Assembly: GCA_030698395.1 (NCBI GenBank)
Contig: JAUYKW010000007.1
Coordinates: 1 to 37,442 of the forward strand
Source: a bacterium
GTDB taxonomy: Bacteria; Patescibacteriota; Patescibacteriia; UBA9570
DNA length: 37,442 nucleotides
Reading direction: 5' to 3'
In this document: one piece after another, positions 1 through 6,426 of the stretch
Layout: every line of letters starts with the position of its first letter
Position numbering within the stretch: position 1 is the first letter of the stretch
Made by a program: the position numbers and the translations under genes
The notes under the pieces: generated by a model
What the model saw: the letters and a program-made list of their open reading frames with translations, nothing else
What the model was told of the DNA's origin: nothing
The model's database searches: none

Positions 1-919
1 TAATAACAACATCTCTTGGCCCTTGACCATCTGCAATTTCTTTTTCATTAGGAAAGCGCCGTGCTGCAAAAACCACGCCTACACCACCTTGACCAAGTTT
101 TTTTGTGAGAATATATTGTCGATTTTTTATTGTTATTTCAACTGGAGGATCTATATTTTCTCCTACTTCAATACTCCACAGAGCATCGACAACCTCTAGT
201 AAGTTTGTGTCTTCTTGATCTACAACCGTTTCAATACTGTCATCCCAAACATCGGCATATCCTTTTTCTTTTATATTTTCATAGAGTTGTTCTCTGACGA
301 TTTCTCCTACTTCTATACTACTTAGATTATCTCCTTCGATAAAGAATTGCTGACTTGGCTGATCAAATCCTAATTCATGTGCATCAAAAGCATCTGTATA
401 TAAAAATTGTATTTCTGGGAGTAAATGTTCTGCTACATGATCTGCGCCTGCAATAATTATTTGTTCTTTGAGTCTTTCTGCTTGTTCTTGAATTCCGGAT
501 AAATCTTCTATAGTTTGGGATACCTCTGCGATTCTGTTTTCATATTCATTTTGGTTGTTCGTATTTCTTTCTAGTGCTTCCATTACTTTATTGACAATTC
601 TTCTTATACTACTTGTCCATTGATGTATTTCTTTTCGAGCATCTTCAATAAAGCTATGATCATCTTCTAGTTTCTGCCTGTGTCCATTTAGTGTTCTTAA
701 TTTTTCTGCGATAGCTATTTGCAGTTCGTCTAAGAGTTTATGAGCTTGGTCTGCAGGATTAATTGTTTCGAGATCAGGATTTTCAGAGTAATCAGTTGCA
801 TCGTAAGTATCAAAAGCTGTGTCAGAAAAACGACTTCCATCCATTTGGACTCCGGCTCTATTTTCATCAGCCGGTTTTATTGGTTTTGGTTTAAGTTGTC
901 GTTCCGGACTTGTTGGCAT
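1..919 (-). CDS. Ser/Thr protein kinase-like protein, third tandem paralog (N-terminal part, runs off window edge)
   Basis: Open minus-strand frame from ATG at 919 to position 1, not in the ORF track. Translation begins MPTSPERQLKPKPIKPADENRAGVQMDGSRFSDTAFD, has a coiled-coil-like region, then the P-loop ILTKKLGQGGVGVVFAARRFP...VVI, colinear with the two downstream paralogs. Confidence 0.85.
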   Translation of the reverse strand, partial: MPTSPERQLKPKPIKPADENRAGVQMDGSRFSDTAFDTYDATDYSENPDLETINPADQAHKLLDELQIAIAEKLRTLNGHRQKLEDDHSFIEDARKEIHQWTSSIRRIVNKVMEALERNTNNQNEYENRIAEVSQTIEDLSGIQEQAERLKEQIIIAGADHVAEHLLPEIQFLYTDAFDAHELGFDQPSQQFFIEGDNLSSIEVGEIVREQLYENIKEKGYADVWDDSIETVVDQEDTNLLEVVDALWSIEVGENIDPPVEITIKNRQYILTKKLGQGGVGVVFAARRFPNEKEIADGQGPRDVVI

Positions 920-957
920 ATTACGTTTTTATTATTTGCTGTAGCCTCAGGAGAGTT

Positions 958-3669
958 CTATATGCCTGGTTGGTTGTTATCGTCGTCTTCTTGTGGATTA
1001 ATATCTGGTGCTATTGGTATATAATTTTCTAAGCGACTAGATGAACTGTCATCAAAAGGATCATTATTTGATTGCATTGATTCTAACAATAGATCTAAGG
1101 TTTTTTTATCATCTATATATTCAGGGTCGCCAAGATCAATTTCTTCAATGTCTTCACTTTTTTCATCAGGTGGCTCTGATGCATTAACAGTTATTGGTGG
1201 AGCTTCCGATTGAGGCTGGTTTCTTTCTGGACTTGATTCTCTTGGTGGGTTTTTAAGCGGAATATCTTTTGATTCGTCGGAATTTTCTTTGCCTTCAACT
1301 TCAAATTCATCCGCGACTTTTCCTCTTAAAATTGCACTAGTTAGGCGATTGCTATTCCGTTTTACTTCATTTGCTTTCGCGCGGAAGCTGTGAGCTTCTT
1401 GCGATTCGGACTCTAACTGGTAGGTTAATAAATTTCTTTCTTTAATCATAGTAGCAGCATCAAGTACATGGAGACGATCTTGTTCTTCCTCGCCTTGAAT
1501 AATATCATCAACTGATAAAGGTTTTGTGGCATTTTCGGAAATTAATCTGTTTGAAACATAATTTAATACTTGGATTTCCTTTTTTTGTTGAGGATCTAAT
1601 TTTTGATAATTGCCACCAATATTTTTTGCAATTATTGATAATATCTCACCAGCAGAATAATAATCCAGGGATGTTTTTATTTTCATCCAATATGCATTTT
1701 CTTCCTGAGTTGCTAATTCTGGATTATCATTGTTTCTTTCATGAATTCTATTTATTTCTCCTTGTATTACCATCAAAGTTGTCCAGGATTTTAGAAAAGG
1801 TGGCATGTAACTAAGTGTACCTGCAACACCAACGTCTCTTTTTAAATATTGTGGTTCTTCAGCAAACGATGCGCTTCGGCTAGTGTCTGATGGTATTCTA
1901 GTTTCTTCTTCAGCAACTACTTCTTCAGCAATTTTTTTATCTTCTGCAGTTAAAACATTATCTCCTGAGTTTCCTGAAGTTATTTCTCCATCAATATAGG
2001 AGATACCAAAATCAACAAGTTTAATTTTACCAGTTTTTGTAACCATGATATTGCCAGGTTTTAAATCTGAATGCATTACACCTCCTGAATGCGCATAATG
2101 GATAGCATTAAGAATTTGATAAGCATAATCCATGCCGGTTTCAAAACTTATTCCTCTTTCTAGTACTTCACTCAGCTCTGGGCCTGTGATTTTTTCTTGT
2201 GTCAAAAATAATGCTCTATCATCACCAGTTTTTAAAGCTACTTCACGTTTAGCAAAATTAATTTGACGTTGTAGGGAGTTAACTTTTTTCTGAGCTTCTC
2301 CATGTTTCTCATACCACCTTACTAGTTCTGCTTGAGCTTTAGATAATTGGTCGGCAAGTAGTGATTTGTCTTCTTCCGCTGCAACTTTTAATCCCTTATT
2401 TAAGTTAGTGATTTCCGCTATAATTGATTTTTTTTCTTCAAGGGGTGCAGATAATTCTGCTAGGGTAGCGTTAAGTTCTGCAACTATTGGTGCAATTTCT
2501 GCTTCCATTTGTTCTTGCGCAGCTTTTTGTTCTGGGCTAGTAACTTTAAGCATCGCACTATCAAGCATTACGGATACAGGTATTGAATCTAAATTATCTG
2601 GATAAGTTACACTTCCATTTTCATTGGTAAAGGGTTTTCTTCCCACAGCATCTAGAGCAGCAATTTCTCGATAAATATTTTTTGTATTCTCACCACCGTT
2701 CGTACTATAAACTTCATTATTGTTAAAAACTTTAGACATCTTTATAACTACTTCCATTGGTTCTTTACCAGCAGATTTTTCTTCGGGAGTTGGATATCTA
2801 GTACCATCCAGTACTATGCCAAATCCACCTTGACCAATTTTAGTGGTTAATAGAAATGTACGACCATTAACCTTTACTTCGTAAGGTGGCTCAATAGGGG
2901 ATCCAACTTCTAATTTCCAAAATTTCTCAACAATTGCTGGAATATCGGTATCAGTTTCCTGAAGAGCTTCATTTTCTGCATAATCAAGTAGGGAATTACT
3001 ATACTCTGGATCATATAAGGATCTTTCACTGCGTTCTTGTAGAGCGTCATATGATTTTATATCTCCTTGAAGAAAAAATTGTTGCTCGCTCTGCGAGAAC
3101 TCCTCGATATCACTAAGGTTGTGCTGTTGAAACGAGGTTTCATGAAGAGCTCTTATTTGAGGAAGTAGATTGGTAAGTCCATCTTCTGTTCCACGTTTAA
3201 CTTGACTACTCAGTTCTTTAACTTGATTTCTGCGTGTTTTAATATCTTCGATATTTCGAGTTAAGCGTTTTTTTTCACTATCTAGATAACTGTGTTTCTC
3301 ATATAGTTCCTGAGCTTTAATAAGTAACCGCTTTACTATGCCTAGTGCAACTTCACGATCACGTTCGGAATTTGCTTCATCATTTAAGATTGATTGGTGT
3401 TCATTTACCAACATTTTATATTTAGCATCTAGAGTGTTTTTAAGTTGGTCTAATCGATGCCATGCTTCTTCATGCGGTTGCATAGTAGAGTAATCAATTG
3501 CCGTAGTGGTATCTGGATTAGCTATAGCAAAATTTGATTCATCATCTAGTGTTGGGTCATCAAAAGCTGTGTCAGCAAAACGACTTCCATCCAAAGGAAC
3601 TCCAGCTATTTTATCGTTGGTTGGAGCTGGTTTTGCTAATCCAGGTCTTTTGTCTGGGTTGATTGGCAT
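958..3669 (-). CDS. Large Ser/Thr protein kinase-like protein with coiled-coil regions
   Basis: 903 aa; P-loop KIGQGGFGIV, VVIK lysine, catalytic loop MHSDLKPGNIM, DFG, then GTLSYMPPF; acidic C-terminal tail. Confidence 0.88.
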   Translation of the reverse strand: MPINPDKRPGLAKPAPTNDKIAGVPLDGSRFADTAFDDPTLDDESNFAIANPDTTTAIDYSTMQPHEEAWHRLDQLKNTLDAKYKMLVNEHQSILNDEANSERDREVALGIVKRLLIKAQELYEKHSYLDSEKKRLTRNIEDIKTRRNQVKELSSQVKRGTEDGLTNLLPQIRALHETSFQQHNLSDIEEFSQSEQQFFLQGDIKSYDALQERSERSLYDPEYSNSLLDYAENEALQETDTDIPAIVEKFWKLEVGSPIEPPYEVKVNGRTFLLTTKIGQGGFGIVLDGTRYPTPEEKSAGKEPMEVVIKMSKVFNNNEVYSTNGGENTKNIYREIAALDAVGRKPFTNENGSVTYPDNLDSIPVSVMLDSAMLKVTSPEQKAAQEQMEAEIAPIVAELNATLAELSAPLEEKKSIIAEITNLNKGLKVAAEEDKSLLADQLSKAQAELVRWYEKHGEAQKKVNSLQRQINFAKREVALKTGDDRALFLTQEKITGPELSEVLERGISFETGMDYAYQILNAIHYAHSGGVMHSDLKPGNIMVTKTGKIKLVDFGISYIDGEITSGNSGDNVLTAEDKKIAEEVVAEEETRIPSDTSRSASFAEEPQYLKRDVGVAGTLSYMPPFLKSWTTLMVIQGEINRIHERNNDNPELATQEENAYWMKIKTSLDYYSAGEILSIIAKNIGGNYQKLDPQQKKEIQVLNYVSNRLISENATKPLSVDDIIQGEEEQDRLHVLDAATMIKERNLLTYQLESESQEAHSFRAKANEVKRNSNRLTSAILRGKVADEFEVEGKENSDESKDIPLKNPPRESSPERNQPQSEAPPITVNASEPPDEKSEDIEEIDLGDPEYIDDKKTLDLLLESMQSNNDPFDDSSSSRLENYIPIAPDINPQEDDDNNQPGI

Positions 3670-3735
3670 ATTATGATGTTTTTATAATTTTTGATAAATA
3701 TTATTCAAAGTTTTGTGTTTCATTCATTTGTTGTG

Positions 3736-6321
3736 TTATTCTAATTGGCTCCGCATTGTTTCTTCAGCATTATAAGTATTTTCGTTTGTATATGGATCTT
3801 TTATTAGTTGTGGGTCTGTAAGTATGTTATCAAGAGTTGCTCCATTGTCAATTGCATCATTTCTTTCTTGCCCAGGTTTATTTTTAGAAGAAGCTTTGAT
3901 GTCCATCTTTTGAGATTCTTTACCATTTTTAAGATCTAATACTTCTTTAGCTAGTCGCATTTGTTTATTGTGAATTATATTTGCAGTAGCTCTATATTCT
4001 CGTACTTTTACCTTGGCTTCTTGGATTGTTGATTGTTGATTTCGGTTTCTAAGTATGGTCACAACATCCTCTAGGGTTAAGACATCTTTATTGTCCGGAA
4101 CATCAAAATCGGGAGCTTCTGCATTTTCTACCACTAAGCGGTTTGCAACATATGTTAGTACATCTAATTCAGCCTTTTGCTTTTCTGTAATAGCATCCCA
4201 TTTACTATTTAGTGCGTTTGAAAGCTCTCTTAGTATTAAGCCAGTTGCGTAATAATCCTGTTTAGTTTTTACGCGGGTTATATATTCATTCGTAAGTTGT
4301 TTAACTTTCTCTGGGTTTCCAGGATACATCTTGTTGAGACCTTTTATTTGATTATTGAGACTTTCAATTTTCGCAAGATTTAATAAGAATGGTGGCATGT
4401 AGGGCAGGGTACCGGTTATCTGAATAGATGAATATTCGTATTGAGGGTTTTGGGCGTATGCTTCTTTGTTGTTTGGATCTTCAAGTATTTGCGTATCATC
4501 CTCTGTTGAGTGCGTTGGAGAATCTTCAGTATATATAGTACTTAATAATCCAGTTGCATCTGGTAAAGCATTAGCTTGGAAATGGGCCATACCAAAATCG
4601 ACTATTTTTAATCTATTGTTTGCTCCTAGCATGATGTTGGCAGGTTTTAAATCAGTGTGACGAATGCCAGAATTATGAATGTAGGATAAAGCTGACACTA
4701 TTTGCTCTGCGTAATCCATGCCTGTTTCGAACTTGGGATATCTTGCTAATAATTCCTTTAATTCTGGGCCAGCTATCTTCTCTTGGGCTAGCAAGAATGC
4801 TCTTTTGTCTCCATGTTTTATTGTTATTTCTCTGCGCGTAGATAGTATTTGCCTTTTTAACGCAGCAATTTTATTGAATGCCTCAGTGTTGTTTTCTCTT
4901 AGTTTGATCAGTTGTTTTCTGATTTTATCAATTTTTTTTCCTAGCTTTAATTTTTCTTCTGGATCTACTGTCTTTTCATCTTCAAGCAATTTGGTTAATT
5001 CATTAATTAATCCTTGCCTTTCTTCTGATACTTCAGAGTACTCATTCATTAGGAGTTTATGTTGTGCAGTTAACCAAGCTAAGTTTTCTTCTGCTGCAGC
5101 ATGCTCCATGCTTTGATCTGGACTTGAAATTTTTGATACTTCAGCTTCTAACATTACAGATACTGGGATAGTACTCAAATCTTCAGGATAAACAACGTTG
5201 CCAGATTCATCTATAAATGGATCTCTGGATAATATTTGTAATGCAGCGAGTTCTTTATAAATGAACTTGGCGTCATTTTCATTTTTTTTGTATAAGTCAC
5301 CGTTATTAAAAACTTTAGTTAATTTTAAAACAATTTCTATTGGCTCTTTGCCTTGAGCAGCTTGTTCCGGAGTAGGGAAGCGAGTTCCGTCCATAACCAT
5401 GCCAAAGCTTCCTTGACCTATTTTTCTAGAAAATAAAAAAACTCTACCATTAATTTTTATTTCTAATGGCGGTTCTAATGCTGCACCAACTTCTAATTTC
5501 CAAAATTTTTCAATAATTGCGGGAATATTAATTGCAGATTCGTGAGCAGTTTCATTTTCAACATAGTCTAATAAAGTTCCGCTATATTCAGGATCTAATA
5601 GAGAGCGTTCTGCTCTTTCTGCTAGTTCTTCGCCAGATTTCATATCATCATGTAGAAAGAATCTTTGTTCAGTAGCTGTAAAATCATCAATTTCTTGTAG
5701 GCTATGTTCTTTAAAAGAATCTGTATGCAAATCTCTAATATTATCAAGCAGAACTGATATTTTGGGAGGACTTTTTTTTAAAATCTTGCTAATTTCATTT
5801 ATTCGTTGTCTACGTTGCTCAATATCTATTAAAGCATTTTTTAATTTTGATTCTTCTGTTTCTAATTGTGTACGTGCTCTATAGTATTCTTGAATTTTTA
5901 ATCGTGCACGTGTTAACCAACTTAATGCAGTTTTTCTGTCTTGTTCGATATTTTTAGCATTGTTTAGTAAGGATTGGTGTTCATTGAGTATATTTTTATA
6001 TCTATTATCGAGTTTGGTTTTCAACTCATCTAATCTATGCCAAGCTTCTTCAAGCGGTAACATTGTAGAATAATCAGTCGTCATGTGTGCATCAATATCA
6101 GATATGTTACTATCTGTTTCGGAATCATTACTAATAATTTCTGAGTCTATATGCGGTATAATGCCTGCGTCAGTTCCAAAATCATCTGGTTGGTATGGTT
6201 TTAGTTCATCATCGTCAAATGCTGTGTCAGCAAAACGACTTCCATCCATAGGAACTCCAGCTATCTTGTCTTCATCGAGAGCTGATTTTTTAATAGGTTG
6301 TTTATCGGGATTTATTGCCAT
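3736..6321 (-). CDS. Large Ser/Thr protein kinase-like protein with coiled-coil regions
   Basis: 861 aa; P-loop KIGQGSFGMV, IVLK lysine, RHTDLKPANIM, DFG, GTLPYMPPF; same architecture as 958..3669. Confidence 0.88.
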   Translation of the reverse strand: MAINPDKQPIKKSALDEDKIAGVPMDGSRFADTAFDDDELKPYQPDDFGTDAGIIPHIDSEIISNDSETDSNISDIDAHMTTDYSTMLPLEEAWHRLDELKTKLDNRYKNILNEHQSLLNNAKNIEQDRKTALSWLTRARLKIQEYYRARTQLETEESKLKNALIDIEQRRQRINEISKILKKSPPKISVLLDNIRDLHTDSFKEHSLQEIDDFTATEQRFFLHDDMKSGEELAERAERSLLDPEYSGTLLDYVENETAHESAINIPAIIEKFWKLEVGAALEPPLEIKINGRVFLFSRKIGQGSFGMVMDGTRFPTPEQAAQGKEPIEIVLKLTKVFNNGDLYKKNENDAKFIYKELAALQILSRDPFIDESGNVVYPEDLSTIPVSVMLEAEVSKISSPDQSMEHAAAEENLAWLTAQHKLLMNEYSEVSEERQGLINELTKLLEDEKTVDPEEKLKLGKKIDKIRKQLIKLRENNTEAFNKIAALKRQILSTRREITIKHGDKRAFLLAQEKIAGPELKELLARYPKFETGMDYAEQIVSALSYIHNSGIRHTDLKPANIMLGANNRLKIVDFGMAHFQANALPDATGLLSTIYTEDSPTHSTEDDTQILEDPNNKEAYAQNPQYEYSSIQITGTLPYMPPFLLNLAKIESLNNQIKGLNKMYPGNPEKVKQLTNEYITRVKTKQDYYATGLILRELSNALNSKWDAITEKQKAELDVLTYVANRLVVENAEAPDFDVPDNKDVLTLEDVVTILRNRNQQSTIQEAKVKVREYRATANIIHNKQMRLAKEVLDLKNGKESQKMDIKASSKNKPGQERNDAIDNGATLDNILTDPQLIKDPYTNENTYNAEETMRSQLE

Positions 6322-6344
6322 AATATATGGTTATTAACTATGTG

Positions 6345-6372
6345 ATTATAGCAAATTATACAGTTTTGTCAA
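6345..6372 (-). promoter_or_regulatory. Predicted sigma70 promoter of the kinase operon
   Basis: Minus strand TTGACA (6367-6372), 16 nt spacer, TATAAT (6345-6350), upstream of the start at 6321. Confidence 0.8.
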
Positions 6373-6387
6373 GGTGCATGCATTGAA

Positions 6388-6416
6388 TTGACAATTATTT
6401 GAACTACTAGTAATAT
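6388..6416 (+). promoter_or_regulatory. Predicted sigma70 promoter of the SUF operon
   Basis: TTGACA (6388-6393), 17 nt spacer, TAATAT (6411-6416), ATG at 6427. Confidence 0.75.
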
Positions 6417-6421
6417 ACTAG
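6407..6421. promoter_or_regulatory. Candidate operator palindrome overlapping the SUF operon -10
   Basis: CTAGTA-ATA-TACTAG: perfect 6-bp arms, 3-nt centre, directly upstream of the Rrf2-family regulator gene. Confidence 0.45.
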
Positions 6422-6426
6422 GAGTT

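Follow-up and report, generated by a model that had tools for sequence, protein, structure and literature searches.

What keeps a short N-terminal peptide almost unchanged in three neighbouring protein kinases, and is it found on anything other than kinases? The question arises in the window analysed here, which is the whole of contig C17 (37,442 nucleotides) of a 1.3 Mb genome (G000), whose size and relatives give the impression of a small-genome, CPR-like bacterium. Three paralogous minus-strand genes lie there, as a preliminary description had it, and their products (K1 to K3, Table 1) all carry AGVx[ML]DGSRF[AS]DTAFD within residues 21–37. The core of this “tag”, searched as a degenerate DNA pattern, occurs at just these three places across all 1.3 Mb; the reversed control pattern hits none.

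Table 1. Features of the kinase array and its products. Positions refer to the window unless a contig is named.
Feature	Position	Strand	Basis
K1, Hanks-type kinase, array gene 1, 861 aa	3736..6321	-	ORF; PF00069 E 1.1e-18
K2, Hanks-type kinase, 903 aa	958..3669	-	ORF; PF00069 E 5.2e-18; structure model and kinase-fold matches
K3, third kinase, 5' part, 306 aa, cut by contig end	2..919	-	ORF
Candidate remainder of K3	G000:C24 (L028) 3-1556	+	PF00069 E 4.7e-18
Promoter-like site TTGACA-16-TATAAT with TG extension, upstream of K1	6345..6372	-	12/12 consensus match
K1 tag AGVPMDGSRFADTAFD, residues 21-36	6214..6261	-	
K2 tag AGVPLDGSRFADTAFD, residues 22-37	3559..3606	-	modelled as disordered
K3 tag AGVQMDGSRFSDTAFD, residues 22-37	809..856	-	
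K2 N-terminal helical hairpin, residues 65-182	3124..3477	-	model; BLASTP of N-terminal halves
K2 coiled-coil hairpin, residues 379-481	2227..2535	-	model; alignment
K2 catalytic loop HSDLKPGN and DFG, residues 527-555	2005..2091	-	alignment

Another contig of the same genome, C24, starts with a 517-residue frame that resumes the kinase N-lobe at the K3 break after a gap of about 10 residues; judged from homology, this frame is probably the rest of K3, which would bring the protein to about 830 residues. The gene following the kinase part on C24 is a convergent SpoU methylase, so the array would consist of exactly three genes. No minus-strand terminator-like sites were found between the array genes, and the single strong promoter proposed upstream of K1 is borne out as sequence; a perfect σ70-type promoter without an internal terminator-like site makes a single K1–K3 operon likely. 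On the opposite side of the promoter region lies a divergent Rrf2–SUF operon, and within window positions 6322–6426 a TTGACA-17-TAATAT site faces Rrf2/SUF, divergent from the kinase promoter. These divergent promoters are a possible regulatory link between iron–sulfur stress and the kinases. The kinase arrays of two sister-genus genomes, G001 (C2, L034) and G002 (C45, L033), occupy an equivalent location, adjoining genes for a GspE-type ATPase and a DHH-type phosphoesterase, unlike the G000 array, which adjoins the SUF operon.

By their conserved motifs, K1–K3 are active-looking Hanks-type Ser/Thr kinases. PF00069 scores for K1, K2, and the C24 part of K3 are 66–68 bits against a cut-off of 31.7, with the match limited to the catalytic half of each. 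K2 has the motifs GQGGFG, VVIK, REIAAL, HSD, and DFG, with equivalents in K1 by alignment; the VAIK lysine of K3 lies inside the contig gap. All three are non-RD variants, the HRD arginine being replaced in HSD (K2), HTD (K1), and NKD (K3); this arginine marks RD kinases only, and membership of the superfamily is possible without it. None of the three reaches an NCBIfam equivalog cut-off: the PASTA kinase model NF033483 gives 63, 55, and 67 bits against a cut-off of 450, and Pfam scans of K1–K3 found no PASTA repeats. The anti-phage defence kinases PD-T4-6 and MAD6 were considered and rejected, as the matches span the catalytic core only and the neighbours are SUF genes and SpoU.

The structure model of K2 (mean pLDDT 68.6; alignment depth 11 sequences), whose fold matches are protein kinases, runs from a disordered head (residues 1–57) through a helical hairpin, the N-lobe, a coiled-coil insertion, and the C-lobe to a disordered tail. 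The tag lies within the head, which is below pLDDT 50. The helical hairpin has homologous counterparts in K1 and K3 (BLASTP of the N-terminal halves). In K1, K2, and the C24 part of K3, a coiled-coil hairpin of ~100 residues splits the kinase N-lobe between β4 and the hinge; in the alignment this insertion is absent from the sister-genus kinases. The N-lobe just before the hinge is an unusual place for the insertion of a coiled-coil hairpin.

The motif had been described as standing under separate constraint between N-terminal halves that otherwise diverge strongly. Such divergence is seen in K3, whose N-terminal half is 25–30% identical to those of K1 and K2 (BLASTP), but not between K1 and K2, which share 48% identity across the whole N-terminal half (BLASTP) and 43% overall. 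Even so, the tag is far more conserved than the sequence flanking it. The K1–K3 tags are also unusually similar at the codon level, and in four of seven array pairs the tag codons are more similar than codons elsewhere (Fisher p 0.0002–0.017). Such codon likeness points to gene conversion as a contributor to the similarity of tags within an array, and if only array members are considered, recent copying could explain that similarity. The tag might then be a mere relic of tandem duplication and gene conversion, with no function of its own, a reading that has to be weighed against the carriers found outside the array.

One further site in the genome was hit by a profile built from the K1–K3 heads (E 0.34): the start of a 561-residue protein on contig C14. 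Its head is IVGIPVSAQTEDRFGDTAFDE and its C-terminal part is a PP2C phosphatase (PF13672, E 4.8e-6, 26.7 bits against a cut-off of 24), with the metal-binding aspartates of the motifs DG, GD, SDG, and DD invariant in three aligned proteins; the fold matches of its model are PppA, tPphA, and PstP. An 828-residue coiled-coil protein on contig C6 starts with NAGLPLSGAERFEDTGDDN, so that in both non-kinase carriers the tag stands at the extreme N-terminus. The carriers in G000 are therefore five: K1–K3, the unlinked PP2C phosphatase, and the coiled-coil protein. Nearly the whole of G000 was covered by three approaches (a regular expression, profiles, and a ranked comparison of 1007 ORF heads), which agree on these five, and no other carrier was seen there; a second G000 PP2C, of 1853 residues, is without the tag. 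Circularity was lessened with leave-out profiles: with a kinase-only tag profile, the PP2C was the first non-kinase among 2553 ORFs (E 0.05); conversely, K1–K3 came out at ranks 3–5 (E 4e-4 to 0.013) when only the two non-kinase carriers had gone into the profile. With each kinase head as query, the heads of the PP2C and the 828-residue protein were the top two non-kinase heads among 1007. The motif thus does occur on non-kinase proteins, which the preliminary description had named as a point to check, and what it called a “multi-kinase system” does contain several tagged kinases; since a phosphatase is tagged too, “kinase–phosphatase system” describes it better.

BLASTP between the kinases and the non-kinase carriers found no similarity besides the tag, and both the PP2C and the 828-residue protein encode it with codons that differ from those of the kinases; the constraint therefore acts on the peptide. 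A DNA-level element, considered as a candidate, is ruled out by these other codons. Moreover, the non-kinase carriers are unlinked, and gene conversion cannot easily explain their tags. The relic reading, which draws on the codon likeness in four of the seven array pairs, is accordingly very unlikely and strongly disfavoured: the unlinked genes speak against it, as does the recurrence of kinase–PP2C sharing in G001 with another sequence.

Neither viral contigs nor nine further genomes of the order contain the G000 tag in its literal form. Absence of the motif outside the array had been named as grounds for abandoning the idea of a separate system; within G000 no such absence is found, while across genera it holds literally, an equivalent but different tag being found instead. 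The three tandem kinases of G002 have L[RK]VExQQTGGEELLSP in common, and the two tandem kinases of G001 have QQEG[IF]x...A[LF]. The G001 tag, in the form QxEG...RAxxAL, is carried by the two kinases, by an orthologous and syntenic PP2C with the head ...AAQSEGIEDAPADAVVRAEEALGVEVP, and by a 170-residue protein. The G001 PP2C has the same upstream neighbours as that of G000 (an O-methyltransferase, a DUF4349 protein, and a sigma factor) and aligns with it outside the heads at 30% identity; alone, it scores below the Pfam cut-off. The 170-residue protein was the one further G001 site found with a profile of the three other G001 heads (E 0.012). Neither it nor the 828-residue carrier of G000 has a family match, and no ortholog of the latter was found in nine genomes, where one weak match reached E 0.05.

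Elsewhere the pattern was not seen. No tagged PP2C was found in G002 (~90% complete), whose sole PP2C match is a different protein, of 1692 residues; the kinase and PP2C heads of G005 and G007 show no common tag, and searches of G003 detected no kinase and no PP2C. In several further regions of the class that hold kinase arrays, no comparable common head was seen in the parts inspected.

The different tags bear directly on what the peptide could do. In G000, the threonine of RFxDT is kept in 5/5 carriers in an acidic, pTxxD-like setting (DTAFD), as would suit a site that is autophosphorylated and then read by an FHA-type domain. The G001 tags, however, have no conserved serine or threonine, no threonine is conserved across the tags of the genera, and searches of ten genomes from the order, with positive controls, detected no FHA domain (PF00498, E ≤ 0.05). 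An FHA-read phosphosite is disfavoured for these reasons and seems to us highly improbable; autophosphorylation, one of the roles originally proposed for the peptide, finds no support as a general function.

Alternatively, the peptide could be merely the end of a common N-terminal domain, made of tag and helical hairpin and fused to the kinases, the PP2C, and the 828-residue protein, with helix oligomerisation as the function and the tag incidental. Long helices do follow the tag in K2 and in the PP2C, the two carriers modelled, and the PP2C resembles K2 in that its residues 1–43 are modelled as disordered (these disorder calls come from shallow alignments of 11 sequences for K2 and 3 for the PP2C). 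On the other hand, the helical regions of the kinases show no BLASTP similarity to those of the non-kinase carriers, and the G002 kinases carry their tag without the long hairpin. We regard this as the least probable of the explanations.

The heads were compared quantitatively by local alignment z scores over the first 60 residues, and the scores form blocks by genome. Of the 38 pairs in which one or both members are non-kinases, 12/12 within-genome pairs have z of 2.7–7.4, all above the 26/26 cross-genome pairs (maximum 1.5). The orthologous phosphatases, which match the kinases of their own genomes at z 2.7–8.4, illustrate this clearly: the G001 PP2C head matches the G001 kinases at z 6.7 and 2.7 and all G000 or G002 kinases at z ≤ 0.7, the G000 PP2C head shows the reverse pattern, matching G000 kinases and not those of other genomes, and the heads of the two orthologous PP2Cs match each other at only z 0.4. 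Three of the four non-kinase carriers (the G000 PP2C and the 828- and 170-residue proteins) were found or noticed via the tag and are thus ascertained; the G001 PP2C was found as a PP2C, which makes it the cleanest test, being identified without use of the tag. Its head is the best non-kinase for one G001 kinase and the second best for the other among 346 ORF heads (~390 kb); its tag is weaker, ranking sixth with a kinase-only profile (E 5.9). At the level of sequence, the sharing between kinases and PP2C in G001 is an independent replicate of the pattern in G000.

The gene for the 170-residue carrier of G001 introduces a further possibility, as it is encoded just upstream of a 1575-residue LysM protein: the tag could be an export or loading signal, read by a secretion or injection machine for delivery to the envelope or to another cell. 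The extreme N-terminal position and modelled disorder of the tag would suit such a signal, and kinases, phosphatases, and coiled-coil proteins are common cargo types. Conservation at the residue level within a genome, coupled with a complete change between sister genera, is however unlike a physico-chemical signal, and the PP2C genes of both G000 and G001 adjoin sigma-factor genes. Export is therefore unlikely in our view. As for the locus itself (G001:C14, L199 6605–11854, minus strand), the tagged 170-residue ORF ends in a TAG stop, after which the LysM frame continues in the same frame; the locus could hold two separate genes or a single one interrupted by an in-frame stop.

Our preferred reading of the N-terminal peptide, held with moderate confidence, is a docking (address) tag specific to each genome, which would gather the kinases and the opposing phosphatase on one common partner. 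The docking or localisation role suggested at the outset gains support from the tag on the PP2C and the coiled-coil protein and from the parallel tag of G001. In the three cytosolic kinases and the PP2C, a flexible head ahead of a helical region would expose this peptide to a common putative receptor in the cell; enzymes of both kinds, along with at least one coiled-coil accessory, would thereby be assembled together and work on shared substrates. What the analysis observed are the tags and their carriers, their N-terminal position and modelled disorder, the likeness of heads within genomes against their unlikeness between them, and the key catalytic residues; receptor, complex, and shared substrates, like the part played by gene conversion, are inferred. 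A single receptor reading several peptides would hold these alike within a genome, and drift of the receptor would change the whole set of tags, leaving sister genera with different tags on orthologous enzymes. More tentatively, and with some doubt, one may imagine a self-matching address system, in which a lineage-specific peptide on kinases, phosphatase, and accessory proteins is read by one receptor, the set switches between genera with the aid of gene conversion in the kinase array, and the phosphorylation circuits of related bacteria would be insulated from each other.

Bacteria usually have a single PP2C phosphatase, and how Ser/Thr kinases and PP2C find common targets is a long-standing question. 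If the docking reading is true, a peptide on both opposing enzymes that switches as a set would answer it in a way open to direct test, and would be a rare bacterial case of wiring by short linear motifs. Full-text searches in a PMC library yielded no description of this tag pattern. The nearest described principle is that of the effector-associated domains (EADs), small folded, mostly helical coupling adaptors that are shared with a core NTPase or GTPase component (Kaur et al. 2020, PMC7159879). As with EADs, one non-enzymatic terminal module is found on several otherwise different proteins of a genome, some encoded elsewhere; EAD copies are closest to lineage-specific copies, for which a coupling of components has been proposed (PMC7159879), and the tag copies on several proteins of one genome are likewise closest to each other. 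In contrast to EADs, the tag is a segment of 20–40 residues modelled as disordered and not a folded domain, the pair that would be coupled is a kinase and a phosphatase, and no core component was recognised among the carriers seen.

The nearest enzymes are PknB/PstP-type pairs. PknB/StkP kinases and PstP/Stp1-type PP2Cs likewise combine a kinase fold with its key motifs and an opposing PP2C in the genome; the tagged kinases differ in having no PASTA repeats, in their coiled-coil insertion in the N-lobe, and in the shared N-terminal tag, and here the kinase and PP2C genes are unlinked. Eukaryotic docking short linear motifs offer a parallel, as the proposed recruitment of kinase and phosphatase to a single binding surface would likewise depend on a short disordered peptide; here, the tag is on the enzymes themselves, in a bacterium, and the set changes between genera. 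The pattern also provides a search principle: the same head on different enzymes of the same genome may lead to further circuit members in uncultured small-genome bacteria.

The untagged PP2C-domain proteins of 1853 residues in G000 (C13, L152 10129–15690, minus strand) and 1692 residues in G002 (C64, L187 1623–6701, plus strand) are very large; both adjoin pheS/pheT-like genes and are conserved between genera. Finally, a 1380-residue protein (G145:C3:48969–50372, L074) has two kinase-domain matches in one chain.
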